This document shows, piece by piece, positions 8,338-53,494 of a DNA stretch of 64,000 nt. The stretch covers positions 3,224,001 through 3,288,000 of the forward strand of contig NZ_CP059067.1 of assembly GCF_017795745.1 (NCBI RefSeq), written 5' to 3'. The position numbers and the translations under genes were made by a program. This stretch comes from Rhizobacter sp. AJA081-3 (lineage in GTDB: Bacteria > Pseudomonadota > Gammaproteobacteria > Burkholderiales > Burkholderiaceae_C). How positions within the stretch are numbered: the first letter of the stretch is position 1; every line of letters begins with the position of its first letter. The notes beneath the pieces are model-generated. The model had not been told where the DNA came from. It did not search any database and saw only the letters and a program-made list of their open reading frames with translations.

Positions 8338-8347
8338 CGCCTCGGGT

Positions 8348-27708: not shown

Positions 27709-28761
27709 ATGAAGCTCTTCGGCATGCTCGACTCGCCCTACGTGCGGCGGGTGGCAATCTCGCTGCAACTGCTCGGCCTGCGTTTCGAGCACCAGTCTCT
27801 GTCGGTGTTCCGCGGCTTCGAGGACTTCCGCCGCATCAACCCGGTCGTGCGCGCTCCCACCCTGGTGTGCGACGACGGCGAGGTGCTGATGGACTCGACG
27901 CTGATCATCGAATACGCCGAGGCGCTGGCCCGACCGCGCACGCTGCTGCCCGAGTCGCTGCCGCAGCGGCAGCATGCGCTGGCCTTGACCGGCCTGGCGC
28001 TGGCCGCCTGCGAAAAGAGCGTGCAGATCGTCTACGAACACGGCGTGCGCCCGCCCGAGAAGCTGCACGAGCCCTGGGTGACTCGGGTCACCGGGCAGAT
28101 GCTGGCGGCCTTCGACGCGCTCGAGCAGGAGCTGGCGCGCGAGCCGCTGGACGCCAGCACCGAGGGCATCACGCAGGCCGGCGTGAGCGCTGCCGTCACC
28201 TGGCAGTTCGTGCAGAGCCTGCTGCCCGGCAAGGTGCCAGCAACGCGCTGCCCGCATCTGGCGGCGTTCTCGGCGCGCGCCGAGGCGCTGCCGGCATTCG
28301 CCGCGGCGCCGCATGGCGAGGGCATCGTGCAGCCCGATCCGGCGGCGGCGAAAGCCGCGCCGGTGCCGTACATCCCGCCCGGCTTCGGCGCGGTGACGCC
28401 CTACTTCTTCGTCGATGACGCGCCGCGCTTCATCGCCTTCCTCATCGACGGCCTGGGCGGGCGGGAGCTGCTGCGCAGCCTGCGCCCCGACGGCAAGGTG
28501 GCCAACGTGCAGGTGGCGCTGCACGGCAGCACCGTGATGGTCAGCGAGGCGTCGCTCGCCTACCCGGCGATGAGCGGTGCGTACTACCTCTACGTGGCCG
28601 ATGCGCAGGCCGCGATGCGCCAGGCCCTCGCACACGGCGCCACGCTGGAGATGGAGGTGGCCGACATGCCCTACGGCGACCGGCAGGGCGGCGTGCGTGA
28701 CGCGCACGGCAACCTCTGGTGGATCTCCCAGCGTCTCGTGCACGCGCCCTACACGGCCTGA
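27709..28761 (+). CDS. Glutathione S-transferase/VOC fusion protein
   Basis: The 350-residue protein joins a GST and a vicinal-oxygen-chelate (PhnB-like) domain. Residues 1-80 are the thioredoxin-fold GST domain with Ser9/Tyr11 (LDSPYVRRV) and the cis-Pro at about 50; 85-205 is the helical C-terminal domain. After a Pro/Ala linker, residues 226-345 form the VOC domain with 'PYFFVDDAPRFIAFL' and 'PYGDRQGGVRDAHGNLWWIS'. The order suggests glutathione-linked isomerisation or detoxification. The stereochemistry and substrate are unknown. AAGGAG lies just before the ATG. Confidence 0.88.
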   Translation: MKLFGMLDSPYVRRVAISLQLLGLRFEHQSLSVFRGFEDFRRINPVVRAPTLVCDDGEVLMDSTLIIEYAEALARPRTLLPESLPQRQHALALTGLALAACEKSVQIVYEHGVRPPEKLHEPWVTRVTGQMLAAFDALEQELAREPLDASTEGITQAGVSAAVTWQFVQSLLPGKVPATRCPHLAAFSARAEALPAFAAAPHGEGIVQPDPAAAKAAPVPYIPPGFGAVTPYFFVDDAPRFIAFLIDGLGGRELLRSLRPDGKVANVQVALHGSTVMVSEASLAYPAMSGAYYLYVADAQAAMRQALAHGATLEMEVADMPYGDRQGGVRDAHGNLWWISQRLVHAPYTA

Positions 28762-28805
28762 CAAGGGGGCTGCATGTGCACGGGTCGCAGAGTAGGATGC
28801 GCTGC

Positions 28806-29270
28806 ATGAGCGAAGCGCCCTACCCCGGCCACGAGCGCGCGGCCGACCGCGAGCTGGTGACCTCGCGAGTGATCGCCGCGCCTCGCGCTCGTGTCTACGA
28901 GGCCTTCTCCGACCCGGCGCAACTGGCTCGCTGGTGGGGCCCGGCGGGTTTCACCAACACCTTCGAGACCTTCGAGCTGCGTGCCGGCGGCGCCTGGCGT
29001 TTCGTCATGCACGGCCCCGACGGGGTCGACTACGCGAACGAGAGTGTTTTCGTCGAAGTGCTGCCGGGGCAGCGCGTGGTGTTCAACCACCTCTCCAGCC
29101 CGGCCTTCGAGATGAGCATCACCTTCTCGGACCACGGCCCGCGCACCGCGGTGGGATGGCGGCAGCGCTTCGCCAGCGCCGAAGAGTGCCGACGCATCGC
29201 CGTCATCGCGGTGCCGGCCAACGAGCAGAACCTCGACCGGCTCGCCGCATTGCTGCGCGAGCCGGCATGA
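28806..29270 (+). CDS. AHSA1-type SRPBCC protein
   Basis: The 154-residue protein carries the AHSA1-like pattern: 'RVIAAPRARVYEAFSDPAQL', the WWGPAGFTN loop and the end 'AVPANEQNLDRLAALL'. Bacterial members are uncharacterised and often sit beside ArsR regulators, which is not the case here. It is the last gene of the + strand run. Confidence 0.88.
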   Translation: MSEAPYPGHERAADRELVTSRVIAAPRARVYEAFSDPAQLARWWGPAGFTNTFETFELRAGGAWRFVMHGPDGVDYANESVFVEVLPGQRVVFNHLSSPAFEMSITFSDHGPRTAVGWRQRFASAEECRRIAVIAVPANEQNLDRLAALLREPA

Positions 29271-29285
29271 CCAGCCGGCGCCCCG

Positions 29286-29873
29286 TCAGCCCAGTTCCTT
29301 CTGCCGCGCGATGACGCGCGAGACGATGCCGTAGGCCACGGCCTCGTCGGCGCTCATCCAGTGGTCGCGTTCCATGTCGGACAACACCTTGTCCAGCGGC
29401 TTGCCCGTCTGCACGGCGATGACGCGCGCGATGCGCTCGCGGGTGCGCAGGATCTCCTTGGCCTGGATGGCGATGTCGGTGGCCTGGCCGCCGGCGCCGC
29501 CGGCCGGCTGGTGGATCATGAAGCGCGTGTTGGGCAGGCACACGCGACGCTCCTTGGGCGGCGCCAGGAAGATGTGCGCCCCCGCACTGGCCACCCAGCC
29601 CGTGCCCACCGTGGTGACCGGCGCACGCACGAAGTTGATCATGTCGTGGATGGCATCGCCCGACTCGACGTGGCCACCGGGCGACGAGATCAGCATGGTG
29701 ATCGGCGCATCGGAGTCCTCCGACAGCGCGAGCAGCCGCCGGCAGGTGGCCAGGGCGAGCTTGTCGTCGATCTCGCCGAACACCAGCACGTAGCGCGACT
29801 TGAAGGAGAGCTGCTCCTCCAGGCGGTCGGGCTTGGCGGTGGGTTTGTCGTCGGCAGCGGCGAGGTGATTCAT
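29286..29873 (-). CDS. clpP: ClpP-family serine protease (orphan paralogue)
   Basis: The 195-residue protein has the full ClpP triad: Ser96 (GWVASAGAH), His121 (MIHQP) and Asp170 (ERDHWMSADEAVAYG). ATG 29873 is preferred over 29879 because GGAG would abut the latter. Position 97 is Ala where the canonical motif has Met (SMG). ClpP is a tetradecameric protease that needs ClpX or ClpA; neither is adjacent, unlike the tig-clpP-clpX arrangement. It lies 55 bases after the FAD oxidoreductase and may be the last gene of the bufferin operon. Confidence 0.88.
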   Translation of the reverse strand: MNHLAAADDKPTAKPDRLEEQLSFKSRYVLVFGEIDDKLALATCRRLLALSEDSDAPITMLISSPGGHVESGDAIHDMINFVRAPVTTVGTGWVASAGAHIFLAPPKERRVCLPNTRFMIHQPAGGAGGQATDIAIQAKEILRTRERIARVIAVQTGKPLDKVLSDMERDHWMSADEAVAYGIVSRVIARQKELG

Positions 29874-29928
29874 GGGCATCTCCAGGGGAAAGGGATTGGG
29901 TCGATTCTGGCCCAGTCGGCGACCGGGT

Positions 29929-31026
29929 TCAGCCGACGCCGCCGTGGGCCCGCATGAAGTCGCGGTCGATGCGGTCTTTCCAGCGCCACACCCAGGCGCC
30001 TTCGGCCGACCAGGCGCCCCAGCTCGCGATGGCGTACTTCTCGCCGCAGGCCAGCAGGTTGAGCGCTCGCCGCTGCGGGCGGTAGGGCAGCAGCTCGCCG
30101 CCGGCCAGGAAGCGGCGCAGGTTCAGCGCCAGCGGCGCACCGGCACGCACCGCGTAGACGCCGCTCTTCGGGTGCGGATCGTCGTTGCGCGTGGCCACGT
30201 CGCCGGCGGCGAACACCTCGGGGTGCGAGCTGTTCTGCAGGGTGGGCCCAGTCTCGACGAAGCCGCGCTCGTCCAGCGCCAGGCCGCTGTCGTGCAGCCA
30301 GGCCGGCGCCGCTGCGCCCAGGGCCACCACCGCCGCATCGCAGGCCACGCGCGTGCCGCGGCCGAGCAGCACGTGCTCGGCGCTGATCTCGGCGCAGCTG
30401 TCCTCGAGCACGGTGACGTTGCGCCGCTTGAGCGCCTTCAAGGCACGCCGCTGCACCGACGGCGGGTGCGTGGGCAGGGGCACGCCACCGCCGGTGACCA
30501 GGCTCACGTGCGAACGATCGCCCAGCGTGTGGTGGATGGCCAGCGCCAGCTCGACGCCGGCCGCGCCGCCGCCGACCACCACCACGCACAAGGCGCGTTC
30601 GCGGCCGAGCTCGGCCATGCGGCTCCACAGCTGCGTGAAGGCCTCGATCGGACGCACGAACAGGCCATGCTCGCGCGCACCGGGGATCGTTTCGCGGTCG
30701 ACCGTGGCGCCGATGTCCAGGCTGAGCACGTCGTAAGGCAGGCTGCGGCCGTCGGCCAGCGTCACACTGCGCCGGGCGGCGTCGATGCCGGTGGCGGCAC
30801 CCTGCAGCAGGCGCACGCCGGCACGCTCGGCCATCGGCGCCAGCGGCACGCTGCACTGCTCCAGCGAATAGTGGCCGGCCACATGGCCAGGCACCATGCC
30901 CGAGTAGGTGAGCCGCGGATAGGGTGTGACCAGTGTCAGCTCGGCCGCGGGCACGGCCTCGGTGGCGAAGGCGCGCATCACCTGCAGGTGCGCATGCCCG
31001 CCGCCCAGCAACAGCAGGCGCTTCAA
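29929..31026 (-). CDS. Pyridine nucleotide-disulfide (NDH-2/SelD N-terminus-like) oxidoreductase
   Basis: The 365-residue flavoprotein opens with 'LLLLGGGHAHLQVMRAF', the FAD-binding motif found in the oxidoreductase domain fused ahead of SelD in some bacteria, and has a second Rossmann motif 'VVVVGGGAAGVELALAI' near residue 150 and the C-terminal FAD motif 'EVFAAGDVATRND'. No CxxC redox pair is present, so it probably transfers electrons to a quinone or other acceptor. Translation is taken to begin with TTG 31026, which overlaps the TGA of the DUF3047 gene (TTGA). No selD is present in the window. Confidence 0.82.
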   Translation of the reverse strand: MKRLLLLGGGHAHLQVMRAFATEAVPAAELTLVTPYPRLTYSGMVPGHVAGHYSLEQCSVPLAPMAERAGVRLLQGAATGIDAARRSVTLADGRSLPYDVLSLDIGATVDRETIPGAREHGLFVRPIEAFTQLWSRMAELGRERALCVVVVGGGAAGVELALAIHHTLGDRSHVSLVTGGGVPLPTHPPSVQRRALKALKRRNVTVLEDSCAEISAEHVLLGRGTRVACDAAVVALGAAAPAWLHDSGLALDERGFVETGPTLQNSSHPEVFAAGDVATRNDDPHPKSGVYAVRAGAPLALNLRRFLAGGELLPYRPQRRALNLLACGEKYAIASWGAWSAEGAWVWRWKDRIDRDFMRAHGGVG

Positions 31027-31754
31027 GGCGCGAGGACCAGGTCGGCCACGTGGGCGACGCTGTGGCCATGGGTGTTGTCGGCATCGGCACCGACGGCGAT
31101 GCCCACGATGGGCGGCACCTGCGTGCTCTCGTGACCGAACAGCTTCAGGAAGTCGGCCGCGACATCGCGGCGCTCGGGCTGCCAGCGTGCCCGGCTCGGC
31201 GCGCCGCTGCGCAGCACGACGTAACGCAGCCGGTGGGTGAAGGCGTTGTCCAGCTCGGTGCCAGCCGGCAGCGTGCGGTCCCACACGTAGCAGACGGTCG
31301 CGGCCGGCAAGGGCTCGTCGCTGGCCGCCCGCGCCATGCGCAGCAGTTGCCGCTCGACAAAGGGCAGATTCGACATCGGCATCTCGAAGAACACGCAGAC
31401 CTTGACGGCAGAGTCGTCGCCACGCTTCGTCGTGAGATCGGACGCTGCGACGAACTCGTCCACCCGCCACGACCACGACAGCATGAGCCCGGCGCCGTCG
31501 GCGCGCAGCGGGTGCACCAGGTTGCCGTAGGCGCCGTCCGCCTCCACGCGCAAGGCGCGGCGGCCGTCGAGCTCGACCACCGAGAAGCGCGTGAACGGCT
31601 GCTTCTGGTGCGGCAGGCCGGCCAGATGCCAGGGAGCGTTGATCGTCCCGCCCGGCGTGCCGAAGGGCTGCAGCAGTTGCACGTCGGCCTGCGCTCCGCC
31701 GGCCGAAGCGAGCAGCATCGTGGCGGCAAGAAGGAGTTTCGTCGGCAGGGTCAT
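31023..31754 (-). CDS. DUF3047 periplasmic protein
   Basis: The 243-residue protein has a signal peptide (about 1-23, ending AQA) and one DUF3047 domain: 'GLMLSWSWRVDEFV', 'KRGDDSAVKVCVFFEMP' and 'CYVWDRTLPAGTELDNAFTHRL'. DUF3047 has a concanavalin-like fold and unknown role. It starts 74 bases after the reductase fusion; a hairpin (31808-31821) lies in that gap, so it may have its own promoter. Confidence 0.85.
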   Translation of the reverse strand: MTLPTKLLLAATMLLASAGGAQADVQLLQPFGTPGGTINAPWHLAGLPHQKQPFTRFSVVELDGRRALRVEADGAYGNLVHPLRADGAGLMLSWSWRVDEFVAASDLTTKRGDDSAVKVCVFFEMPMSNLPFVERQLLRMARAASDEPLPAATVCYVWDRTLPAGTELDNAFTHRLRYVVLRSGAPSRARWQPERRDVAADFLKLFGHESTQVPPIVGIAVGADADNTHGHSVAHVADLVLAP

Positions 31755-31807
31755 GGCTCACGGCCCGGCACCGCGACGCGGGCCGGTCGACCTATGCTAA
31801 ACGAGCC

Positions 31808-31821
31808 ACGGCGCACGCCGT
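31808..31821 (-). terminator. Weak hairpin after the VTT-reductase gene
   Basis: On the minus strand ACGGC-GTGC-GCCGT forms a 5-bp stem eight bases after the stop at 31829, followed by GGCTCGTTT. It could be an attenuator between the reductase and DUF3047 genes. The T-run is short, so readthrough is likely. Confidence 0.3.
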
Positions 31822-31828
31822 AACAGCA

Positions 31829-33979
31829 TCAAGCCCGGCGCCAGGCGTGGTACTTCGCCACCCATTCGAGCAGCCTGGCCGGCTGGTGGTTGCGCTTCCA
31901 CTCCCCCGCCGCGTACTTGTTCGCCTCGGCCATCGTCGGGTAGGTGTGGATGGTGCCGAGGATCTTGTTCAGCCCCAGCCCGTGGCGCATCGCCAGCACG
32001 TACTCGGCGAGCAGGTCGCCGGCATGCGCGCCGACGATGGTGACGCCGAGGATGCGGTCCTTGCCCGGTTCGGTGAGCACCTTCACGAAGCCGTGCGCGG
32101 CGCTGTCGGCGATGGCGCGGTCGAGGTCGTCGATGCCGTACTTCGTGACCTCGACGGCGATGCCCTTCTCCTTCGCTTCCTGCTCGTTGAGGCCGACGCG
32201 CGCCACCTCCGGGTCGATGAAGGTCGCCCAGGGGATCACCGAGTAGTCGGCCTTGAACTTCTTGAAGGTTCCGAACAGCGCGTTGACCGAGGCGTACCAC
32301 GCCTGGTGCGCCGCCACGTGGGTGAACTGGTAGGGCCCGGCCACATCGCCGGCAGCGAGGATGTTCGGGTAGACCGTCTGCAGGTACTCGTTGGTCTCGA
32401 TGGTGCGGCCGGTGGCGATGCCCAGTTCCTCCAGGCCATAGCCCTTCAGACGCGCGACGCGGCCGACGGCGCACAGCAGCTGGTCGAACTCGAGACGCTT
32501 CTCGGCACCACCCGCCTCGACGACGATGAACTTGCGCCCCTCCACGAGTTCGCAGCGCAGCGCCTTGTGGCCGGTGAGCACCGCCACGCCGTCGTGCTCG
32601 AGTGCCGCCTTGGCGAGCGCCGAGACCTCCTCGTCCTCGCGGATCATGATGCGCGGCGCCATCTCGATCTGCGTGACCTGCGAGCCCAGCCGCGCGAAGC
32701 TCTGCGCCAGCTCGCAGCCGATCGGCCCGCCGCCCAGCACCACCAGGCGCGGCGGCAGCTCGCGCAGGCCCCACAGCGTGTCGCTGGTGAGGTAGCCGAC
32801 CTCGTCCAGCCCGGGAAGCGGTGGCACGAAGGGCATGGCGCCGGTGGCAATGACGATGCTGCGCGTGGTCAGCGCTTGCTTGCGGCCCTCGCCGAGATCG
32901 ATCTCCACCGTCCACGGGTTGACGATCTTCGCGTAGCCCGTCACCACGTCCACGCCGAGGCCGGTGTAGCGTTCCACCGAATCGTGCGGCTCGATGTCGC
33001 GCACCACGTGCGCCACGCGGTCCATCACGTCGGCGAAGTTCAGCGTGGCCTGCGCGCTTTCGATGCCGTACTTCCTCGACTCGCGAATCTGCTGCATCAG
33101 CGTCGCGGTCTTGATCAGCGCCTTGCTCGGCACGCAGCCGTAGTTCAGGCAGTCGCCGCCCATCTTGTGGCTCTCGATCAGCGTGACCTTGGCCTTCACC
33201 ACCGCGGCGATGTAGCTCGTCACCAGCCCGGCCGCGCCAGCGCCGATGACGACCAGGTTGCGGTCGAAGGACTTCGGTTTCACGCTCGCCCAGCGCGCGT
33301 AGACCTTGCGGCCCTGCACCAGATCGACGATCTTCTTGGCGATCAGCGGGAACAGGCCCAGCAGCACGAAGGAGCCGAGCAGCCCCGGCGACAGGATGCC
33401 CTTGAGCGAATCGATCTTCGCCAGCTGCGTGCCGGCGTTCACATACACGAGCGTGCCGGCGAGCATGCCGAGCTGGCTGACCCAGTAGAAGGTCCAGGCC
33501 TTCATCTTGGTCAGGCCCATCAGCAGGTTGATGACGAAGAAGGGCAGCAGCGGCACCAGGCGCAGCGTGAAGAGGTAGAAGCCGCCCTCCTTCGCGATGC
33601 CCTTGTCGACCTCGGCCAGGCGTGCGCCGAAGCGCGCCTGGACCCCGTCGCGCAGCACATAGCGCGAGACCAGGAAGGCCAGCGTGGCGCCGAGGCTGGA
33701 GGCGAACGACACCACCAGCGTGCCGACCGCCAGGCCGAAGATCGCGCCGCCGGCCAGCGTGAGGATGGCCGCGCCGGGAAACGACAGCGCTGTCACGCCG
33801 ACGTAGACGGCGAAGAAGCTGCCGATCACCAGCGCCGGCCGCTGCGCGTACAGCGCCGCGAACTCTTCCTGGCGCGACTTCAGGTACTCGAGGCTGAAGA
33901 ACCGCCCGAGGTCGAAGGCGAAGTAGGCCGCGATCAGCGCGAGCACCACGGCGATGACGACGAGCTTGCGGCGGTTCAT
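31829..33979 (-). CDS. VTT membrane domain/mercuric-reductase-like flavoprotein fusion
   Basis: The 716-residue protein joins a VTT (TVP38/TMEM64, SNARE-associated) membrane domain, residues about 10-220 with the motifs 'FPGAAILTLAGGAIFG' and 'LRLVPLLPFFVINLLMG', to a pyridine nucleotide-disulfide oxidoreductase. The second part has FAD motif GAGAAG (246-251), redox pair Cys277/Cys282 (GGDCLNYGCVPSKAL) and the family His-Glu region 'HTYPTMAEAN'. It lacks the N-terminal HMA domain and the C-terminal vicinal cysteines of MerA, so it is unlikely to be a mercuric reductase. GAAGGA sits eight bases before the ATG. Confidence 0.9.
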   Translation of the reverse strand: MNRRKLVVIAVVLALIAAYFAFDLGRFFSLEYLKSRQEEFAALYAQRPALVIGSFFAVYVGVTALSFPGAAILTLAGGAIFGLAVGTLVVSFASSLGATLAFLVSRYVLRDGVQARFGARLAEVDKGIAKEGGFYLFTLRLVPLLPFFVINLLMGLTKMKAWTFYWVSQLGMLAGTLVYVNAGTQLAKIDSLKGILSPGLLGSFVLLGLFPLIAKKIVDLVQGRKVYARWASVKPKSFDRNLVVIGAGAAGLVTSYIAAVVKAKVTLIESHKMGGDCLNYGCVPSKALIKTATLMQQIRESRKYGIESAQATLNFADVMDRVAHVVRDIEPHDSVERYTGLGVDVVTGYAKIVNPWTVEIDLGEGRKQALTTRSIVIATGAMPFVPPLPGLDEVGYLTSDTLWGLRELPPRLVVLGGGPIGCELAQSFARLGSQVTQIEMAPRIMIREDEEVSALAKAALEHDGVAVLTGHKALRCELVEGRKFIVVEAGGAEKRLEFDQLLCAVGRVARLKGYGLEELGIATGRTIETNEYLQTVYPNILAAGDVAGPYQFTHVAAHQAWYASVNALFGTFKKFKADYSVIPWATFIDPEVARVGLNEQEAKEKGIAVEVTKYGIDDLDRAIADSAAHGFVKVLTEPGKDRILGVTIVGAHAGDLLAEYVLAMRHGLGLNKILGTIHTYPTMAEANKYAAGEWKRNHQPARLLEWVAKYHAWRRA

Positions 33980-34005
33980 GACAGATCCTTCGTTGTTCTT
34001 TGTGT

Positions 34006-34614
34006 TCAAGGCGGCAAGCCTCGCCAGCCGGCCCACAGGCGCGTGGCGATGGTCAGCGCGCACAGGCCGGCGAAGCCGAACGCGAACGCGGCGAAGTGCC
34101 CGGGCCACAGGCACATCAGCGCGAAGCAGGCGATGGTTTCCGTCGCCTCCGTCAGGCCGCCGAGATAGTAGAGGCCCTTGGTCGGGTAGGCCACGCTTTT
34201 CTGACCGCGCTGCGCCGCCAGCGCCGCGTAGGCGAGGAAGGTGGAGCCGGTGCCGACGAAGGCGGCCAGCAGCACGGCCGCGGCCAGCGCGTTGGCCGCC
34301 GGGTCGGCCAGCGCGAAGGCAAGCGGGATGCTGGCGTAGAACAGGAAATCCAGCGCGATGTCGAGAAAGGCACCGCGATCGGTGGGCTGCGTGAGGCGCG
34401 CCAGCGCGCCGTCCAGGCCGTCGAACACGCGGCTGGCGAGCAGCAGTGCGAGACCGGCGTCGTACTGCTGCCGCGCGATGCAGACGGCCCCGGCCACGCC
34501 GATGCCGAAGCCGATCCAGCTCGCCTGGTCGGCCGTCAGTCCGAGCCGCGCGAGCGCGCGTGCACCGGCATGCATGGCCGGGCGCAGCAGCGCGAGGGCG
34601 TAGCGGTCAAGCAT
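34006..34614 (-). CDS. ynjF: YnjF-like CDP-alcohol phosphatidyltransferase
   Basis: The 202-residue inner-membrane protein has the complete CDP-alcohol transferase motif: DGLDGALAR, then G and two aspartates in DRGAFLDIALD, which bind the divalent metal and CDP group. Family members make phospholipids from CDP-diacylglycerol. Its E. coli counterpart lies in the ynjBCDEF cluster and is uncharacterised. ATG 34614 overlaps the ynjD end by eight bases; a start at 34641 is possible. Confidence 0.85.
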   Translation of the reverse strand: MLDRYALALLRPAMHAGARALARLGLTADQASWIGFGIGVAGAVCIARQQYDAGLALLLASRVFDGLDGALARLTQPTDRGAFLDIALDFLFYASIPLAFALADPAANALAAAVLLAAFVGTGSTFLAYAALAAQRGQKSVAYPTKGLYYLGGLTEATETIACFALMCLWPGHFAAFAFGFAGLCALTIATRLWAGWRGLPP

Positions 34615-35254
34615 CGCCCGCACTGCCCCCGTGATCGTCAAGCTGGATCACCTGCGCCCCTGGCGGCACGTCGTGCGCATCGTGCGTGACCAGCACCGCC
34701 GGGATGCGCTGCTCGCGCAGGCGCTCGAACACGAAACTGCGGAAGCGCTCGCGCAGCGCCATGTCCAGCCGCGAGAAGGGCTCGTCGAGCAGCAGCGCCT
34801 GCGGCTGCGCGAGCAGCGCGCGCAGCACCGACACGCGCGAGCGTTGCCCGCCCGACAGCGTGTGCGGCAGGCGCGGCCCGTAGCCCGCCAGGCCGGCGCT
34901 GTCCAGCGCCGCCTCGGCGCGGGCGCGGCGCTCGGCGGCGGCACCGGCCGGCAGCGCGAAGAGCAGGTTCTCCAGCACCGTGAGGTGCGGGAACAGCAGG
35001 TCGTCCTGGAAGAGGATGCCGACACGGCGCTGCACCGTGGGCAACGCATCGATGTCGCGGCCGTCTAGCCGCACGCGGCCACTCGCCAGGAGGCCGGGCG
35101 CGAGCGTGCCGCACAGGTAGGCCAGCAGCGAGGACTTGCCGGAGCCGCTCTCGCCCATCACCACCAGCAGTTCGCCGGGCCCGACGCGTGCCGACAGCGC
35201 GCGGATCAGCACGCGCTGCGGCGTGGCCAGGGTGATGCCATCGAGCTCGAGCAT
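34607..35254 (-). CDS. ynjD: YnjD-like ABC transporter ATP-binding protein
   Basis: The 215-residue protein has Walker A GESGSGKS (34-41), Q-loop (FQDD), signature LSGGQ (133-137), Walker B LLLDE (154-158) and the H-loop VTHD. It resembles E. coli YnjD. Its ATG overlaps the permease stop by one base (TGATG). The expected partner is the fused permease upstream. Confidence 0.9.
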   Translation of the reverse strand: MLELDGITLATPQRVLIRALSARVGPGELLVVMGESGSGKSSLLAYLCGTLAPGLLASGRVRLDGRDIDALPTVQRRVGILFQDDLLFPHLTVLENLLFALPAGAAAERRARAEAALDSAGLAGYGPRLPHTLSGGQRSRVSVLRALLAQPQALLLDEPFSRLDMALRERFRSFVFERLREQRIPAVLVTHDAHDVPPGAQVIQLDDHGGSAGDA

Positions 35255-36900
35255 CAGGCCTCCGTGCCCAGCCGCCGCGATTGCCGTCGCGCAACCCACC
35301 ACGCGGCGCCGAAAGCCAGCGCGGGCAGCAGCGCCTGCAGCAGCGCGAAGGCAGCCATCAGCGTGCGCTGGCCGCCCGAGGCGAGCGTCAGCGCCTCGGT
35401 GGTGACGGTGGCGTGGCGGCCGGCGCCGACGAACTGCGTGCTCAGGTACTGCGCCACGCTGACCGCGAAACCCACCGCCGCGGCGGCGGCGATCGGCGCC
35501 AGCAGCATCGGCCACTTGATGAGCAGCAGGAACGCCGTGCGCGATCGGCCCAGCGCCCGCGCCGTCTGCTCGTAGCGCGCGTCGAAGCCGCGGTAGGCCG
35601 GCGCCAGCGCCACCAGCGCATAAGGCGCGCTGAACAGGCTGTGCGCCAGCCACAGGCCGGCGAGGCTGCCGTCCAGGCGCAGCCGCAGGGCCACCTGGTA
35701 GAGCCCGGCGACCAGCAGCACGCCGGGGATCAGCATCGGCGCGAACACCAGCGGCGCGGCGCGGCGGTCCCAGGCGGGCGGCGTGGTCTCCATCCAGGCC
35801 ACGGCGAGCACGACGCCGGTGAACGAGGCGGCGAGCGCGAGCAGCGCCGTGTCGCCGAGCACCGGCAGGCTCTCGACCACGGTGGACCAGGCCTCCAGCG
35901 AAGCTCGCTGCGGCCACAGCGCCGGAAAACTCCACACGCTGGCCACCGACACGAAGGCCAGCAACGCCAGCACCGCGGCATAGACGAGCGCGCCGGCGCC
36001 GAGCAAGGGCCGCACCAACGCGGCCGTGCGCGCCGGCGCAGGCCGGTCGCCGCGCACCTGGCGCGCGCGCAGAGGCGCACGCAGCGCCCGGGCCAGCAGC
36101 AGCGCGGCCAGCGCCCCCGCCGCCACCAGCAGCGCGATCAGCAGCGAGGCCGCCGCGCCCTGCGCGTTGACGGCCGCGTCGGCATCGAGCAACCACGACC
36201 AGGCCAGCTGCGCGAGCGTGGGCGGGCGCGTGGGCCCGAGCACCAGCGCCATGTCGACCACGCTCAGGCCGTAGGCCCACACCGCGAGCAACGGCAGCGC
36301 CAGGCGCGGCAGCAGCTGCGGCCAGAGCACGCGCCACCACACGCTGGCGGCCGGGTAACCCATCGCCTGCCCGGCCTGCAATTGCTGGCGCAGTTGCGTG
36401 GCCTGCGCCACCGGCCGCAGCTGCGCCGCCACGTTCCACAGCAGGAAGGGCACCTCCTTGCCCACCAGGCCGGCGATCAGCGCCAGGCCGAACGGGTCCT
36501 GCACCGTGGCCAGGGCAGGTGGCGAGTCCCAACCGGCCCACGGCGCGATCAGGCGCAGCAGCAGCCCGCTGGGCATCAGCAGCAACGCGAGGCCGACGGC
36601 GAAGGCAGCGTGCGGCACGGCCAGCAGCGCGCCGAGCCAGCGCTCCAGCCGCGCCCAGGCGGGGCTGCCGTGCAGGTGCGTGACGATCCACAGCGTGAGC
36701 GCCAGCGAGACGGCCGTGGCTGCCGCGCCGACCCACAGGCCCAGTGACAGTGCCGGCCACAGCGCCGGGTCGTCGAGCAGCCTGCGCCAGGCCTGCGCGT
36801 CGAGCGCCGCGCCGAGCGCCAGGGTCAGCGCGGCCAGCAGCGGCAGCGCGAACAGCCCGGCCGGCCACCACCAGGCACGGCCAACGGGGCGAAGCGTCAC
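35254..36900 (-). CDS. ynjC: YnjC-like ABC transporter permease (two fused halves)
   Basis: The roughly 548-residue protein has two permease halves of about six helices each, both with the EAA-like loop (AGQAMGYPAASVWWRVLWPQ in the first, QTARALGRSRTAFLLLIKWP in the second), as in thiamine/iron-type importers. GTG 36900 overlaps the TGA of ynjB (GTGA), which makes it the best start; ATG 36921 would add seven residues. Confidence 0.87.
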   Translation of the reverse strand: MTLRPVGRAWWWPAGLFALPLLAALTLALGAALDAQAWRRLLDDPALWPALSLGLWVGAAATAVSLALTLWIVTHLHGSPAWARLERWLGALLAVPHAAFAVGLALLLMPSGLLLRLIAPWAGWDSPPALATVQDPFGLALIAGLVGKEVPFLLWNVAAQLRPVAQATQLRQQLQAGQAMGYPAASVWWRVLWPQLLPRLALPLLAVWAYGLSVVDMALVLGPTRPPTLAQLAWSWLLDADAAVNAQGAAASLLIALLVAAGALAALLLARALRAPLRARQVRGDRPAPARTAALVRPLLGAGALVYAAVLALLAFVSVASVWSFPALWPQRASLEAWSTVVESLPVLGDTALLALAASFTGVVLAVAWMETTPPAWDRRAAPLVFAPMLIPGVLLVAGLYQVALRLRLDGSLAGLWLAHSLFSAPYALVALAPAYRGFDARYEQTARALGRSRTAFLLLIKWPMLLAPIAAAAAVGFAVSVAQYLSTQFVGAGRHATVTTEALTLASGGQRTLMAAFALLQALLPALAFGAAWWVARRQSRRLGTEA

Positions 36901-38111
36901 TGGCCGTGGCGGCGCGCCCATTCGCGCTCGATCACCTCGACCCAGCTCGCGTGCGGCTCGGGCAGCACCGGCACCGCCTGCATCACCGTGCCCGGCGCGG
37001 CGCCCTGCGCGAACAACGCCTTGTCGGCCGTCGGCAGCCTGTCCACGGCCAGCACCGTCGGGTCTCCCCAGTGGCGGATGTCGGCCTTGCGGGCCTGCGC
37101 CAGCGGCGACTGCAGGAAGTCGATCACCACCTGCGCCCCCTCCTTCGCCCGCGCATTGAACGGGATGGCCAGGAAGTGCGTGTTGCCGATGGTGCCGCCG
37201 GCATGCTGCCAGCTGATCACCGACTCCGGCAGGCGCTTCGCGGCGATCTCGTTGGCCGCCTCGTTGGGATTGAAGGTCAGAGAGATGAAGAGTTCGCCAT
37301 CGGCGAGCATCTGGCGCATCACCGTGTTGCTGGCCGGGAACTGCTTGCCTTGCCGCCACAGCAGCGGGTGCAGCGCCTCGAGCGTGCGCCACAGCGGCGC
37401 CAGCAGCGATCCGGGATCGGCGGGTGCCGGTGCGTAGAACGGCTTGCGATCGGGTGCCGTCTCGATCAGCACCTGCTTGAGGAAGGTGGTGCCGTGGAAG
37501 TTGGGCGGCTTGGGGTAGCTGAAGCGCCCCGGATTGCGCTTGGCGAAGTCGAGCAGCTCGGCCAGGTTCTTCGGCGGTTGCGGCACCCGCTTGCCGTCGC
37601 CGTAGAAGGTGAACTGCGCCATGCCCCAGGCGGCCTCGAAACCTTCCACCGGCTCGGAGAAGTCGATGCGCGTGGTCGGCTTGCCCGCCACGTCGACGAG
37701 TGCGAAGTTCGGCAGCGCTTCGGCGAAAGGTCCGAACAGCAGGCCCTCGCGCTTCATGGTGAGGAAGTTCTCGCCGTTGATCCAGCCCATGTCGGCGCTG
37801 CCGTCCTGGTTGCGGCCGGCCTGCTTCTCGGCGCGCACGCGCTTGACGAGCTCCGCCGTGTCGCCGAGCTTGACGTGTTCCAGCTTGATGCCGTGGCGCG
37901 TGGCCACTTCGCCGCTCACCCACTGCAGGTAGGCGTTGACGCGCTCGCTGCCGGCCCAGGCGTTGAAGTACACCGTCTGGCCGCGCGCGGTACGCAAGGT
38001 GGAGACCCAGGCGGCCGGGTCGGCGGCCGCATGGGCCGATCTCCATGCGGGCAGCCAGGGCGCAAGGGCGCCGGCGGCGAGCAGTCGGCGGCGAATCGGC
38101 GAAGGGGTCAT
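36897..38111 (-). CDS. ynjB: YnjB-like ABC transporter substrate-binding protein
   Basis: The 404-residue periplasmic protein has a Tat-like signal (IRRRLLAAGALAPW) and the YnjB pattern: 'TVYFNAWAGSERVNAYLQWV', 'HVKLGDTAELVKRVRAEKQAG' and 'DMGWINGENFLTMKREGLLF'. The E. coli YnjBCD system has no established substrate; annotations as a thiamine importer rest on weak similarity. The ATG overlaps the DoxX stop (ATGA). Confidence 0.9.
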   Translation of the reverse strand: MTPSPIRRRLLAAGALAPWLPAWRSAHAAADPAAWVSTLRTARGQTVYFNAWAGSERVNAYLQWVSGEVATRHGIKLEHVKLGDTAELVKRVRAEKQAGRNQDGSADMGWINGENFLTMKREGLLFGPFAEALPNFALVDVAGKPTTRIDFSEPVEGFEAAWGMAQFTFYGDGKRVPQPPKNLAELLDFAKRNPGRFSYPKPPNFHGTTFLKQVLIETAPDRKPFYAPAPADPGSLLAPLWRTLEALHPLLWRQGKQFPASNTVMRQMLADGELFISLTFNPNEAANEIAAKRLPESVISWQHAGGTIGNTHFLAIPFNARAKEGAQVVIDFLQSPLAQARKADIRHWGDPTVLAVDRLPTADKALFAQGAAPGTVMQAVPVLPEPHASWVEVIEREWARRHGQ

Positions 38112-38647
38112 CGGCGAGCAGGGTGAGCGTCAGGGGTGTCGCGCCGCAGTGTATCGGCCTGGGCAGAAGCCCCGAGGACACGTCGGCGCAGTGCCGGCAC
38201 CGCCCAGCGGTCCAGCGACCAGCGGCCCGGGCCCCAGAGCAGCAGCGCGGCCAGCAGGCTGCCCCAGAACACATGGCCCTGCAGCGCGGCCTCGGCGATC
38301 TCCGCCAGGCTGAGCACAGCGACGAGGTTCACCACGCCCAGCCCCGCCGCGGCAAAGCGGCCGGCCAGGCCGAAGGCGAGCAGCACCGGCAGCACCAGCT
38401 CGCCCGCGGTGCCGGCGACGGCGGCCACGGTGGGGTCGAGCAGCGGCACCTGGTATTCGTCCATGAACAGCGCGATGGTGGTGTCGAAGTCGCGCAGCTT
38501 GGTCAGCCCGGAGCGGAAGAACACCGACGCGACGTACCAACGGGCGACCAGCTGGGCCGCGGGTTGCAGGTGTTCGAGCGCGGCGATCGCGCGCTCGCCG
38601 AGAGACCAGAGGCGGGGCAGCGGCCCGGCGTGCATTGCAGGGATCAT
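38108..38647 (-). CDS. DoxX family membrane protein (bufferin-operon associated)
   Basis: The 179-residue protein has four predicted helices and the DoxX pattern 'LVARWYVASVFFRSGLTKLRDF', then 'VAGTAGELVLPVLLAFGLAGRFAA'. DoxX proteins are common companions of bufferin gene sets and are thought to handle quinone-linked or thiol redox steps, though the role is not proven. Its ATG overlaps the bufC stop and its own stop overlaps the ynjB start. Confidence 0.85.
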   Translation of the reverse strand: MIPAMHAGPLPRLWSLGERAIAALEHLQPAAQLVARWYVASVFFRSGLTKLRDFDTTIALFMDEYQVPLLDPTVAAVAGTAGELVLPVLLAFGLAGRFAAAGLGVVNLVAVLSLAEIAEAALQGHVFWGSLLAALLLWGPGRWSLDRWAVPALRRRVLGASAQADTLRRDTPDAHPARR

Positions 38648-39450
38648 GTCGAGGGCTCGGTGGAATGAGATGTGACTGTGTCGATCCGGCGCGCCGCACC
38701 TTTCAGCCACGAGGCCTCGATCGCACGCTGCAGCCAGGCGCCGAAGTCGAAGCCCGCGCCGGCATCTTCCAGCGCCGCGGCCAGCGAGGCGCCGCGCAGA
38801 AGCGTCAGCATGAAGGCCACTTCGTGGGCCGACACCCGATGCACCGCGGCGCGCCAGTCCGCGCGTGACACGCACACCGCTTCGCCCTGCCCGGCCGCGA
38901 GCGCGGCGCGCACCGGCGCGAAGGCCTCGGGCGCGCCGTTGCGGTGCGCGGCATGGATGGTGGCGATCGGAAACGACGACGCCCGCAGTTCCAGGCCCGG
39001 CATGAACCGCAGCTCGATCGCGTCGGGATCGGCCTCGCCCAGCAGCGCGAGCGAGGCCAGCTCGGGCACCGCATCGGCGGCGCGCTCGCAGCGGTGCAGC
39101 GCGAGATCGAGCCACGCGCTGTCCGCCAGCCAGGGCCATTCGGCCAGGCCGGATTGCGTGGCGATCCAGCCCGGCAGTTCGCCGCCCCACTCGCCAAGGT
39201 CGCCGCGCTGCGGCGGGTGCTCGCGCCAGAACGCGCGTGCGAGCGCGGCGAAGTCGGCCTCGCCGAGCATCGCCTGCACCGTCGGGCAAGCCGTGGCCAG
39301 CGCGCGTTCGGCCTGTGCGGAGGCGTTGGCGCGGTAGGCGGCCAGGCCGCGCTCGGCGCGTGCTCCCCGTTCGCGCAATGCCGGTGGCTCGCCGCAGCGC
39401 GACAGGGCGGCCAGCAGTCGCTGCTGCCGGCGTGACTCGGCCTCGATCAC
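38644..39450 (-). CDS. bufC: BufC-type (DUF2063) partner protein
   Basis: The 268-residue protein has the HvfC/BufC N-terminal pattern '[28 protein letters not shown]', then '[23 protein letters not shown]' and '[15 protein letters not shown]'. In bufferin systems it acts with the DUF692 enzyme to recognise the precursor peptide. GTG overlaps the bufB TGA (GTGA). Confidence 0.87.
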
Positions 39451-40295
39451 GCCGACACCTCGTCGACCACGCGCTGCGCCTGCGCGGCCTCGCCCAGCAG
39501 CACCTCGAGGGCCGGCACATCGGTGTCCCACTCGATCAAGGTGGGCACGGCGCCGAGGCGCTCGATGGCATGGCGGTAGAGCTGCCACACCGCCGGCCGC
39601 ACGCGGCTGCCGTGGTCGTCGATGACGATGTCTTCGGTCTCGCAGTAGCCGGCGAGGTGGATCTCGTCGACGCAGCCCGCGGGCAGCGCATCGACGAAGG
39701 CCCGGCACGATGCCAGCGGATCGGCAGCGCCGGCGTTCAGTGCATTGACCATCAGGTTGTTCAGGTCGAGCAGCAGCGTGCAGCCGCTGCGGCGCGCGAG
39801 CTCGCCGAGGAAAGCGGCCTCGGGGATCGTGTCGTCGTCGTAGGACAGGTACGCGGAGAGGTTCTCCACCGCGATCGGCCGGCGCAGCCGCTCCTGCACC
39901 TGGATCACGTTGCGCACCAGGATCGCGAGCGAGGCCTCGGTGAAGGCGATCGGCAGCAGGTCGCTGCCGTGCAGCACAGGCCCGCCCGCCTCGCGCGGCG
40001 CCCGCGCGAAGCAGGCGTGGTCGGAGACGCGCACCGGGTCGAAACGCCGCACCAGCCGCTCCAGGCGGTCGAGGTGCCAGGCATCGAGCCCGGCCGCCGA
40101 GCCCAGCGCCAGGCCCACGCCGTGCAGGCTGACGGGGTGGCGCTCGCGCAGCCGGTGCAGCACCGTGAGCGAGGCGCCACCGTCGGCGAAGAAGTTCTCC
40201 GAGTGGACCTCGATGAAGCCCAGCGGCGGCGAGCCCTCGCACAGGGCCGCGTAGTGCGGCTGCCGCGCGCCGATGCCGACGCAGTTCGGGTTCAT
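39447..40295 (-). CDS. bufB: BufB-type MNIO (DUF692) peptide maturase
   Basis: The 282-residue TIM-barrel protein has the metal ligands of the multinuclear non-heme iron oxidases: '[12 protein letters not shown]', '[11 protein letters not shown]', 'VSDHACF', 'VENLSAY', '[12 protein letters not shown]', 'EIHLAGY' and 'IDDHGSRV', then 'LIEWDTDVP'. Enzymes of this family oxidise precursor cysteines to heterocycles in bufferins. It lies 20 bases after bufA. Confidence 0.9.
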
Positions 40296-40315
40296 GGCGG
40301 CGCGCGGCGCGAGGG

Positions 40316-40597
40316 TCACTTCTTCATGCCGGCCTTGACCTCGTCGGCGGTCATGCCCTTCATCTGCTTGCAGGTGCCCTTGGCGACGTACTTCCATTCG
40401 TCCGGGCTGTTGTCGGCCTTGGACTGGCCGGCGCAGGAATGCGTGCCCGAGGCGTTGGCGCAGTCGTTCTGGCCGGCCTTGGCGATGCCGAAGCACTTTT
40501 CCTTGGCCATCTTGTCGTCGGCGGCCGAGACCTGGGTGATCAGGCCCAGGGCGAGCACGGAAGCGAGGGCGGACGAGACGATCAGACGCTGGTTCAT
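40316..40597 (-). CDS. bufA: Bufferin-type RiPP precursor peptide (DUF2282)
   Basis: The 93-residue peptide has a Sec signal (1-25, cut after VSA) and a mature part with exactly four cysteines: Cys35 in [10 protein letters not shown], Cys46 in QNDC, Cys55 in HSCAG and Cys76 in KGTC. This spacing matches the DUF2282 family of bufferins, periplasmic copper-chelating peptides in which the central cysteines become heterocycles. AAGGAG lies nine bases before the ATG. It is the first gene of the minus-strand series. Confidence 0.92.
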
Positions 40598-40666
40598 GGT
40601 GGGAACTCCTTGGAAAGAGGGTGTGGGTTTCGTCGAACCGCGGGACAACCCCGCACCGACCGGACT

Positions 40667-40693
40667 AGGTCGACACATCCCGGCCGGCCTTAC
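40667..40693 (-). promoter_or_regulatory. Candidate ECF-type promoter for bufA
   Basis: Read on the minus strand, GTAAGG (40693-40688) is followed after 15 bases by CGACCT (40672-40667), the -35/-10 layout typical of ECF sigma promoters. It would start transcription about 60 bases before the bufA ATG. Many bufferin operons are ECF-controlled, but no ECF sigma gene is in the window. Confidence 0.35.
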
Positions 40694-40719
40694 AGCGCCG
40701 GATCGACAAGAATCCCGTC

Positions 40720-41703
40720 ATGACCCAAGCCCTGCAGCGCGACGACGCGTGGTACCGCGAACGACTGGCGCCGCCAGCCGGCCGCGTGCGCGTGGTGATC
40801 GACACCGACGCCGCCAACGAGATCGACGACCCCTTCGCCATCGCCTGGGCGCTGCTCTCTCCCGATCGGCTGCAGGTCGAGGCGGTCTATGCCGCGCCGT
40901 ATTCGTTCGCCCACCGGCGCTCGCAGTCGCGCGTGCAGCAGCACCGCCAGTTCGACCCGCCCGGCGTGGGCATGGAGCGCAGCCATGCAGCAATCCTGGC
41001 CGTGTACGACAAGCTCGGCCTGGATTCGCGCGGCCGCGTGCTGCACGGCTCGACGCGCTACCTCGCGGCGCTCGAAACGCCCGAACGCAGCGAAGCGACA
41101 GACCACCTGATCGCCACGGCGCTGGCCATGCCGGCGCACGAGCCGCTGTACGTGATCGCCATCGGCTGCGCCACCAACCTGGCCAACGCGCTGCTGCTCG
41201 AGCCAGCGATTGCCGAGCGCATCGTGGTGGTGTGGACCAGCGGCTATCCCTCGCACGCGCCGCACCCCAACCACTCGTTCAACCTCGAGCAGGACCTGCT
41301 CGCCTCGCAGTGGCTGCTCGACAGCGGTGTACCGCATGTCTACCTGCCGGGCTTCCACGTCGGCGCGCAACTGCGCCTGTCGCTGCCCGAGATGGAGCGC
41401 TGGGTGCGCGGCTGCGGCGCCATCGGCGAACACCTGTTCGAGCTCTACACGCACAACCCGCTGTGGGACCTGCTGGGCATCAACAGCTTCGAGGCGCATT
41501 CGTGGGTCATCTGGGACCTGATCAACATCGCCTGGCTGATCGAGCCCTCGTGGGTGCCCAGCGAGATCGTGCGCACGCCCTGGCTGAGCAACGACAAGCG
41601 CTGGCGCGCCGATGCCACGCGCCACCCGATGCGCGAGGCCCACGGCGTGCAGCGCGACGCGATCTTCGCGGCCTTCTTCGAGGCCCTGCGCAGGGCCGAC
41701 TGA
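40720..41703 (+). CDS. Inosine-uridine preferring nucleoside hydrolase family protein
   Basis: The 327-residue protein has the family calcium site as Asp28-Thr-Asp30 followed by Asn33 and Asp36/Asp37 (DTDAANEIDDPFAI), a variant of the usual DTDxGxDD. 'IAIGCATNLANALL' and 'HSWVIWDLINIAWLIEP' complete the fold. The altered first loop suggests a ribonucleoside or other N-glycosidic substrate. It is divergent from bufA, 122 bases away. Confidence 0.85.
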   Translation: MTQALQRDDAWYRERLAPPAGRVRVVIDTDAANEIDDPFAIAWALLSPDRLQVEAVYAAPYSFAHRRSQSRVQQHRQFDPPGVGMERSHAAILAVYDKLGLDSRGRVLHGSTRYLAALETPERSEATDHLIATALAMPAHEPLYVIAIGCATNLANALLLEPAIAERIVVVWTSGYPSHAPHPNHSFNLEQDLLASQWLLDSGVPHVYLPGFHVGAQLRLSLPEMERWVRGCGAIGEHLFELYTHNPLWDLLGINSFEAHSWVIWDLINIAWLIEPSWVPSEIVRTPWLSNDKRWRADATRHPMREAHGVQRDAIFAAFFEALRRAD

Positions 41704-46268: not shown

Positions 46269-46769
46269 ATGAAACCTTCGACGACGATCGCGCTGCTCTG
46301 CGCAGCGCTGGTGCAGATGGCGGCGCCGGCCGCGGCCGGCCCGGATGGGCGCGACCTGCATGCCTACTGGGACGGGCGCTGCAAGGATTGCCACGGCGAC
46401 TCTGCCGCGTTCGCGCGCAGCACGCTGCGCCTGGATCAGGGCCGGCTGGCCGGCAGGCACCACGGCGCCGACCTGCCCGTCTTTCTGCGCAACCACTATC
46501 TCGCCGACGAGCTGGTGGCACCGGTGACGGCGATGCTGGCGGCGCAGGTGGCCACCTCGCCGCAGTTCAAGGAACACTGCGCGGGCTGCCACGGCACAGC
46601 CGCCGACTTCGCGCGCAAGTCGCTGGTCTTGCGCGGCAGCGTGCTGACCGGCAAGGCCAGCGGCAAGCCGGTCGCCGACTACCTGGCCACGCACGGCGGC
46701 ATGCCGCCGGCGGAGATCCCGGCGATGGTGCAGACCCTGCAGCGCGTGCTTCAGGAGGTCGGCGGCTAG
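46269..46769 (+). CDS. Periplasmic diheme cytochrome c
   Basis: The 166-residue protein has a signal peptide (about 1-23) and two c-type heme motifs, CKDCH (38-42) and CAGCH (104-108), each followed by a helical segment and a Met-containing loop. It is probably a periplasmic electron carrier. The four-base end overlaps the convergent kinase-like gene. Confidence 0.9.
   Translation: MKPSTTIALLCAALVQMAAPAAAGPDGRDLHAYWDGRCKDCHGDSAAFARSTLRLDQGRLAGRHHGADLPVFLRNHYLADELVAPVTAMLAAQVATSPQFKEHCAGCHGTAADFARKSLVLRGSVLTGKASGKPVADYLATHGGMPPAEIPAMVQTLQRVLQEVGG

Positions 46770-49876: not shown

Positions 49877-53494
<3,618 letters not shown>

Follow-up and report, generated by a model that had tools for sequence, protein, structure and literature searches.

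A bufferin operon joined to a ynjBCDF module, probably through fusion of two gene sets under the same ECF sigma factor

Introduction

Clusters for bufferins, which are copper-buffering RiPPs, have been described as nearly free of accessory genes, and in the available part of one report additional conserved genes occurred in extremely low proportions (PMC12452194). In the 64,000-nucleotide stretch of Rhizobacter sp. AJA081-3 analysed here (the window), a bufferin operon runs directly into the genes for YnjBCD, an ABC transporter for which we found no assigned substrate. Why are these modules joined? The initial annotation had suggested that the transporter and the lipid enzyme encoded behind it may serve the bufferin or its metal. 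It had also regarded the combination as not described before, and no description was found in the open-access full-text literature.

Results

Bufferin and ynj genes form one run on the minus strand

As shown in Table 1, coordinates and family matches confirmed the order bufA-bufB-bufC-doxX followed by ynjB-ynjC-ynjD-ynjF on one strand. The overlapping stop and start codons annotated at all junctions after bufB were likewise found at every one: GTGA at bufB/bufC and ynjB/ynjC, ATGA at bufC/doxX and doxX/ynjB, TGATG at ynjC/ynjD, and eight bases at ynjD/ynjF. The gap between bufA and bufB was 20 nt, measured from the ATG. The annotated extent, bufA to ynjF, held as far as it went, but the run did not stop at ynjF, and further genes followed. 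Neither sigma-70 promoter-like sites nor minus-strand terminator-like sites were found in 28500-40900.

Table 1. Features of the run and of its upstream side, with positions in the window
Feature	Position	Strand	Remarks
Nucleoside hydrolase-like gene	40720-41703	plus	divergent from bufA
ECF-type promoter-like element TGTAAG-N16-CGAC	40669-40694	minus	-35 at 40694-40689, -10 at 40672-40669; 71 nt before bufA
bufA	40597-40316	minus	bufferin-1 precursor, 93 aa; DUF2282 (PF10048) 91.5 bits
bufB	40295-39447	minus	MNIO maturase; PF05114 (MbnB_TglH_ChrH) 299 bits, above cut-off
bufC	39450-38644	minus	DUF2063 partner protein, GTG start; PF09836 71.1 bits
doxX	38647-38108	minus	DoxX, PF07681 64 bits
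ynjB	38111-36897	minus	ABC solute-binding protein; NF008633 493 bits (cut-off 203)
ynjC	36900-35254	minus	double permease, GTG start; named from position and conservation in relatives
ynjD	35254-34607	minus	ABC ATPase; ABC_tran (PF00005) 111 bits
ynjF	34614-34006	minus	CDP-alcohol phosphatidyltransferase family, 34.6 bits
VTT (TVP38/DedA) domain and MerA/lipoamide dehydrogenase-like flavoprotein fusion	33979-31829	minus	26 bases past ynjF
DUF3047 protein	31754-31023	minus	likely same transcript
TIGR03169 (Nterm_to_SelD) oxidoreductase	~31032-29929 (start approximate)	minus	388 bits, cut-off 310; likely same transcript
ClpP-like gene	29879-29286	minus	after TIGR03169 oxidoreductase in run

Two assignments were close to or below their thresholds. 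BufB scored 309.1 bits against NF050167 (MNIO_BufB), marginally below the cut-off of 310, and YnjC was weakly recognised by BPD_transp_1 (19.9 bits, cut-off 26.4). The four conserved Cys residues of BufA were invariant in 13/13 fused loci, and the precursors have a hydrophobic N-terminal signal-like segment as judged by eye. A PADLOC scan of two proteins detected nothing.

The first half of the run matches Bufferin-1 (Buf1, gig) clusters, with a DUF2282 precursor holding four conserved Cys, an MNIO, a DUF2063 partner and DoxX in the same order, as well as nearby ECF sigma genes, here in relatives. Unlike those clusters, the run continues unbroken into ynjBCDF and the TVP38-MerA gene. The second half resembles the E. 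coli region ydjXYZ-ynjABCDEF, where ynjB, ynjC, ynjD, ynjF and a TVP38-family protein also stand together. In the window, unlike E. coli, TVP38 is fused to a flavoprotein and bufferin genes stand in front; ynjA and ynjE were not found among the scanned frames of the run.

The adjacency recurs in several genera but is not a fixed unit

The distribution of the arrangement was determined in 125 distinct ynjB loci, which remained of 129 after removal of the duplicates L085, L087, L091 and L131; the 80 named loci were the best 80 of 575 and are biased toward near relatives. By hand count, 16 of the 125 had buf genes directly upstream of ynjB and in the same orientation, spread over several Burkholderiaceae genera, and in the family sample the fused arrangement occurred in 8/46 ynjB-positive genomes. 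The adjacency is therefore no freak. It is not a fixed unit either, since the other 109 loci, in five of which the sequence before ynjB is shorter than 1500 nt, showed no adjacent bufABC-doxX operon. Conservation of the adjacency thus held in part. In same-genus genomes without adjacent buf genes, the nucleoside hydrolase-like gene adjoins ynjB instead.

The tight overlaps were not conserved. Counted from the nearest in-frame start, which favours small gaps, the distance to ynjB ranged between -4 and +46 nt in all but two of the 16 fused loci. The exceptions were L088 (+136 nt) and L089 (+72 nt, measured from bufC because no doxX was matched there). BufB and YnjB identities correlated in 14 fused loci (Spearman 0.81), as shared ancestry alone would yield. 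BufB proteins of fused loci occupied two or more positions in the tree, and the fusion looks lineage-bound.

Four Limnohabitans-like loci (L095, L096, L098 and L105) had an MNIO cluster of a second type, HvfABC (EGKCG, oxazolin), upstream of ynjB. Such clusters share the MNIO and a DUF2063-type partner with the window's but have another precursor and another MNIO subfamily. No GTAAG-N16/17-CGAC element was found before ynjB in these four loci.

At genome level, ynjB and MNIO genes were not enriched together in the family sample (33/46 vs 154/253, p = 0.19). Thirteen of the 46 ynjB genomes had no MNIO match, some of them being incomplete, and 154 of the 187 MNIO genomes had no ynjB above the cut-off. 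Genomes with ynjB were not enriched for the sigma factor either (25/46 vs 114/253, p = 0.26). Co-occurrence gave no support to the idea that ynj function depends directly on bufferin, and the idea was set aside.

An ECF-type element precedes bufA when fused and, in part of the loci, either module when apart

A GTAAG-N16/17-CGAC element was found before bufA in 13/13 fused loci holding bufA and before ynjB in 0/16 fused loci. Together with the contiguous run and the recurrence of the adjacency in several genera, this supports the joint production proposed initially. Among the non-fused loci, of which 108 of 109 were used because L054 had too little upstream DNA, 28 had the element in the 350 nt preceding ynjB. 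These comprised 26/63 Burkholderiales loci, a subset that we compiled from titles and family handles, vs 2/45 others. The spacing was 16 in 23 loci and 17 in five, and any other spacing from 8 to 26 gave 0 or 1. Controls gave 0.1-0.3 in shuffled windows (100 shuffles) and 181/25000 in random windows, and the element was absent before ynjC (0/92), ynjD (0/82) and ynjF (0/45). Counting against a shared regulon, 80/108 non-fused ynjB loci lacked the element, including 43/45 outside Burkholderiales.

Separate bufA operons carried the element in 12/20 cases, with spacing 16 in ten, 17 in two and other spacings in 0-3. Eleven of these operons (L230-L240) had been selected for an adjoining TIGR02943 sigma gene; the element was found in 9/11 of them and in 3/9 of the remaining ones. 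In many loci the TVP38-MerA gene comes after ynj, sometimes behind a promoter element of its own, and 9/38 TVP38 genes were preceded by the element. In genomes with separate operons, excluding G590 because its ynjB is fused, the element occurred at both buf and ynjB in 10/19; its presence at bufA and at ynjB was not significantly associated over these 19 genomes (p = 0.30). Variovorax sp. PCZ-1 is an example of a species with separate operons in which both ynjB (L131/L045) and bufA (L232) have the element.

In the genome of the window's host (G000), the exact pattern gave 7 matches vs 7 for the reversed control. A genome-wide regulon listing from this pattern was therefore dropped, and the analysis was restricted to sites with conservation in relatives; some matches fell inside sigma coding sequence and were discounted. 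Promoter-like sites before SenA, methyltransferase, YHS and OlsB genes are leads only.

The candidate sigma factor in the window's host is a distant match to TIGR02943

The best TIGR02943 match in G000 scored 86 bits, below the cut-off of 162.2, and is encoded elsewhere than at the run; the ECF sigma gene considered for G000 lies in the region of G000:C1:4880066. The sigma factor reading the window's promoter is therefore only a candidate. Relatives such as G056, G461 and G516 reached the cut-off. A TIGR02943-like sigma gene (k18) was divergent from bufA in L056, L061, L069, L090, L099, L109 and L110. In L038, L101, L106, L125, L138, L141 and L164, whose ynjB has no adjacent buf, one lay at most 4 kb from ynjB. 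Within the genus, five ynj genomes (G000, G002, G003, G004 and G006) kept an ECF sigma gene, and the element lies next to it. In G005 and G007 no ynjB match was found and the sigma matches were weaker (E about 1e-15) and lacked the element, and G001, a genome 77% complete, contained ynjB with neither element nor sigma match. A zf-HC2/NF052368 protein (one member tested) stood beside the sigma gene in six relatives, whereas the conserved frames next to the one in G000 included no zinc-finger anti-sigma.

The element resembles the Neisseria sigma-E promoter, given in the available part of its description as GTMAGBWTT, 12-13 nt, CGTCTAAH, equal to GTAAG-N16/17-CGTC (PMC2893595). The -35 GTAAG, the spacing and a DoxX-like gene in the operon (NMB2140-2145, MseR) are shared, as is a similar ECF sigma, here beside MNIO clusters in relatives, with the TIGR02943 assignment in Neisseria being ours. 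The -10 differs, being CGAC here and CGTC there; the only counterpart of that sigma in the window's host is distantly related and encoded elsewhere; and the described part of the Neisseria operon has no ynj genes. Caulobacter sigma-F similarly drives DUF2282/DUF692/DUF2063/DoxX genes under metal stress, according to the portion of the report available (PMC3511200); this system differs in its NrsF anti-sigma type and in a target table without ynj genes.

The predicted YnjB structure has a type-2 binding-protein fold

A YnjB model from 45 sequences reached a pLDDT of 90.6; an earlier one from 7 sequences was poor (52.8). Foldseek assigned the model to the type-2 binding-protein fold, with matches across a broad group of ferric, sugar-phosphate, polyamine and thiamin binders, so no substrate could be deduced from the structure. 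No sequence match in the PDB was found at E up to 0.01.

Discussion

The window's sequence places bufABC-doxX between a GTAAG-N16-CGAC element and the ynjBCDF/TVP38-MerA module. In many relatives without the fusion, the element stands directly before ynjB, and in many it stands before a separate bufA, often with a divergent TIGR02943-type sigma gene. Because the element precedes bufA when the modules are fused and often ynjB itself or a separate bufA when they are apart, we consider it likely that two targets of a single ECF sigma factor have been fused in this operon. The proposed mechanism is as follows. Thiol-reactive stress, such as excess copper, other metals or oxidants, would free the sigma factor from a zinc-finger or other anti-sigma, and the freed sigma would transcribe the whole run. 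BufB and BufC would convert BufA into a thiooxazole peptide, which would be exported by Sec and buffer extracytoplasmic copper, as has been reported for bufferins. DoxX, the importer-type ABC transporter YnjBCD, YnjF and the TVP38-MerA flavoprotein may work alongside on a different effect of this stress, possibly in membrane or small-molecule repair. The fusion would secure co-expression, and bufferin production would need no ynj proteins.

This origin would account for the coupling by a promoter shared by both separate modules, so the ynj module need not serve the bufferin. Service of YnjBCD, YnjF and TVP38-MerA to the peptide or its metal, for example in uptake of copper-bufferin or membrane remodelling for export, appears unlikely to us. 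Contiguity in 16 loci across genera, the BufB/YnjB correlation, though expected from ancestry alone, the HvfABC clusters in front of ynjB and a predicted YnjB fold near ferric, metal-citrate and sugar-phosphate binders point toward it, but 109 of the 125 ynjB loci have no adjacent bufABC-doxX operon, either gene occurs in genomes without the other, and the precursors have their own signal-like segment. The function proposed in the initial annotation thus found no support, as co-occurrence did not exceed background. Quite improbable, too, is a chance insertion of buf behind an existing ECF promoter, kept because it was suitable and implying no shared physiology. The lineage-bound look of the fusion would fit such an insertion, as would the finding that ynjB genomes are not enriched for MNIO or sigma genes, but the same element stands at separate buf and ynj operons in 10/19 genomes, fused BufB occupies more than one position in the tree, and an MNIO cluster of another type also precedes ynjB.

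The promoter may instead be shared between bufferin and a selenium, arsenic or sulfur small-molecule pathway to which the ynj module belongs. A TIGR03169 gene lies within the run, a TIGR04282 gene lies 7-9 kb upstream together with one whose product is 55% identical to a TIGR04283 protein, and the same genes recur near ynjB in other loci. In G000 and G004 a promoter-like element also precedes SenA; G002, G003 and G006 have one before a gene with a YHS (seleno) domain. These points are family names only, however, the pattern is not enriched in the G000 genome, and the SenA site is confined to two close relatives; we regard this pathway as very unlikely. The available parts of two selenium papers (PMC5322559, PMC9312934) do not mention TVP38, DedA, DUF3047 or YdjX.

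The fusion of two ECF targets can be extended, as a speculation that we hold to be unlikely, to one ECF regulon present in many Burkholderiales. In it, a RiPP that buffers copper would be secreted, and the YnjBCDF/TVP38-MerA module would transport and process a redox-active small molecule, perhaps an antioxidant containing selenium or sulfur. The window would then represent a stage with both arms in one operon, and the orphan YnjBCD transporter would gain its first physiological setting.

Since relatives with the modules apart often have the same stress-type promoter before each, the two modules probably belong to one stress response. The common element ties them to it in part of the Burkholderiales genomes examined, so cells in which metal or oxidant stress has activated the ECF response offer a defined setting for seeking the YnjBCD substrate. 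It also points to a second arm of the response in which bufferin is made.

The buf-ynj operon of the window

The initial annotation described eight genes, bufA to ynjF, with overlapping stop and start codons, and both their positions and their junctions were borne out by the gene calls in the window, which covers 3224001-3288000 of G000, a genome in one contig of 5.4 Mb. Pfam and NCBIfam backed all eight gene names, with YnjC having the weakest support. The four Cys residues of BufA were kept in 13/13 fused relatives, the window included; a locus is called fused here if ynjB has same-strand buf genes immediately upstream. The run extended past ynjF: a fusion of a VTT/TVP38 domain with a MerA/lipoamide dehydrogenase-like flavoprotein began 26 bases on, followed by DUF3047, a TIGR03169 oxidoreductase and a ClpP-like gene. 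A scan of 28500-40900 turned up neither sigma-70-like sites nor minus-strand sites resembling a terminator. The phosphotransferase and TIGR04283 genes of the window also recurred near ynjB in other genomes.

Coordinates of features in the window and other loci, with the list of fused loci
Feature	Position	Strand	Locus
Phosphotransferase-like gene, TIGR04282 gene and TIGR04283 relative, in a row	46766-49122	minus	window
Hydantoinase A and B domains in a single 1216-aa open frame	49877-53527	minus	window
SenA gene (selenoneine synthase, 508 bits)	1901-3224		L224 (G000:C1:2357400)
ECF sigma gene divergent from response regulator/histidine kinase pair	about 7150-8546		L218
Fused loci			window, L070, L055, L066, L069, L056, L057, L061, L086, L088, L089, L090, L099, L107, L109, L110

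Adjacency of buf genes and ynjB

YnjB scored over the cut-off in 3/399 order-sample genomes, all three from this family, and in 46/299 family-sample genomes. The locus set was built from 48 further fetched ynjB loci and one named collection scanned with seven fused YnjB proteins, from which the best 80 of 575 matches were used; after four duplicates were dropped, 125 ynjB loci remained, the window counted in. The conserved adjacency raised by the initial annotation was found in part: same-strand buf genes directly upstream of ynjB recurred in 16/125 loci, and the 109 others showed no adjacent buf, its absence being unproven where upstream DNA was short (<3000 nt in 11, <1500 nt in 5). Fused loci were present in 8/46 family-sample ynjB genomes, in 0/3 extra genus members and in 0/45 loci outside an author-made Burkholderiales list. 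bufA was not seen in L057, L088 and L107, each starting near a contig end, and L089 lacked a DoxX match. Among those 45 loci, Rubrimonas (L150) carried a reversed pair at a distance of about 4 kb.

Within the genus, G001, G002, G003 and G006 had ynjB without adjacent buf; ynjF was not seen at the first three ynj loci, and the G006 locus stopped within ynjC. The same-genus ynj clusters L082, L073 and L084, without adjacent buf, were also without ynjF. At L231 (G671), a TVP38 gene followed bufABC-doxX on the same strand, with ynjB located elsewhere.

A BufB tree was examined with 34 rows (14 fused, 20 separate). Of the 14 fused BufB, 9 grouped with 1 separate copy in a Sphaerotilaceae-type clade, 4 grouped with 1 separate copy in a Hydrogenophaga-type clade, and the last stood as a lone row. 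The fused/separate label needed 4 changes, at least 3 of them forced. These results indicate either more than one origin of the fusion or several losses of it.

In four Limnohabitans-like loci (L095, L096, L098, L105), which are related and were counted as a single event, ynjB was preceded on its own strand by a different MNIO cluster (MNIO being the maturase family that includes BufB), with about 1.4 to 3.6 kb between the end of the MNIO gene and ynjB. With one member checked per protein, this MNIO was HvfB (387 bits, cut-off 360), the precursor carried the HvfA repeat KCGExKCG (75.8 bits, cut-off 19.5) and scored below cut-off as a full HvfA equivalog, and the partner, found in 3/4 loci, was HvfC (272 bits, cut-off 142). 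No promoter element of the kind described below preceded ynjB in these four loci. A divergent sigma-like gene of weak similarity belonged to their EGKCG-repeat cluster.

An ECF-type promoter-like element

The favoured reading is that the operon joins two targets belonging to a single ECF regulon. By eye, a layout common to all fused bufA genes was TGTAAG or CGTAAG, separated by 16-17 bases from CGAC or a near match to it. We used the pattern GTAAG-N-[CTA]GAC on 108 non-fused loci, taking the 350 bases upstream of ynjB in each. Spacing 16 gave 23 occurrences and spacing 17 gave 5, and each of the other spacings between 8 and 26 gave 0 or 1. Some matches falling within the sigma gene, where they are codons of a conserved peptide, were set aside. 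Shuffled ynjB-upstream windows gave 0.1-0.3 matches, random windows 181/25000, and same-size windows before ynjC, ynjD and ynjF gave 0/92, 0/82 and 0/45. Genome-wide in G000, the bare pattern was as common as a reversed control.

In fused loci, the element stood before bufA in 13/13 and before ynjB in 0/16. It preceded ynjB in three same-genus loci without adjacent buf (L073, L083, L084) and in two distant loci from a deltaproteobacterial MAG (L138) and a Tolumonas MAG (L141); it was missing in 43/45 ynjB loci outside the author-made list. Among separate buf loci, sampled as one each from 20 of 34 ynjB genomes with MNIO, 12/20 had the element: 9/11 of those chosen because a sigma gene adjoins (L230-L240) vs 3/9 of the others. 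The element also accompanied 9/38 TVP38 genes. At the genome level no link was seen for MNIO (33/46 ynjB genomes vs 154/253 others, p = 0.19) or the sigma (25/46 vs 114/253, p = 0.26), and among 19 genomes both bufA and ynjB had the element in 10, an association that was not significant (p = 0.30). Together with the reversed control in G000 and the 43/45 loci that lack the element, these genome-level counts weigh against the favoured reading.

TGTAAG-N16-CGAC was also located 74 nt before the SenA ATG in G000, and G004 had a similar promoter-like site before SenA. In G002, G003 and G006 (L174, L171, L191), a YHS (seleno) domain gene and a gene for an OlsB-like acyltransferase flanked a divergent element pair.

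ECF sigma genes

An ECF sigma gene (cluster k18) was present in seven fused loci, where it is divergent from bufA, and in seven loci lacking adjacent buf, where it lies no more than 4 kb to one side or the other of ynjB. One k18 member scored as TIGR02943/PRK12544, and in six loci the sigma had a small zinc-finger anti-sigma as its neighbour (k45; tested on one member). By hand count, 14/31 such sigma genes in 49 ynjB genomes had an MNIO gene at most 3 kb away. G000 had no TIGR02943 sigma over the cut-off; its best match (86 bits) was at 4880066, with the element about 150 bases away in the opposite direction, before a response regulator. This arrangement was also present in G002, G003, G004, G006 and G590. 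In G005 and G007, which gave no ynjB match, the sigma matches were only weaker ones (E about 1e-15) and lacked the element. At L218, the element lay between the divergent genes, as kept in five genus members and G590. The sigma at 4880066 is a candidate reader of the promoter before bufA in the window.

In N. meningitidis, the operon that encodes sigma-E is reported to include a DoxX-like gene, and the sigma-E promoter is given as GTMAGBWTT, 12-13 bases, CGTCTAAH (PMC2893595); this reads as GTAAG-N16/17-CGTC, whereas the fused bufA element ends in CGAC or a close variant. Under metal stress, Caulobacter sigma-F is reported to drive genes of the DUF2282, DUF692, DUF2063 and DoxX families (PMC3511200), and bufferin clusters with sigma genes are already known (PMC12452194).

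Function of the ynj genes

Copper binding by bufferins is taken from the literature. In the portions covered of the open-access literature on ynjBCD/ynjF, MNIO/bufferin, DUF2282-ECF and COG4134-4136/YdjX, no description of the buf-ynj combination was recognised; one paper notes only that YnjBCD is enriched in brine Marinobacter (PMC9207381). The YnjB model (pLDDT 90.6) matched a broad group of type-2 binding proteins, from which no YnjBCD substrate follows.

Neighbours recurring with ynj were TIGR04283, phosphotransferase, nucleoside hydrolase, DUF3047, TIGR03169 and a protein we take to be DUF547, for which the NCBIfam scan was empty; a TIGR04282 gene lay near the ynj run in the window. Together with the SenA gene of G000 and its promoter-like element, these neighbours hint, as a lead, that ynj may belong to a redox or selenium/arsenic-type small-molecule pathway.
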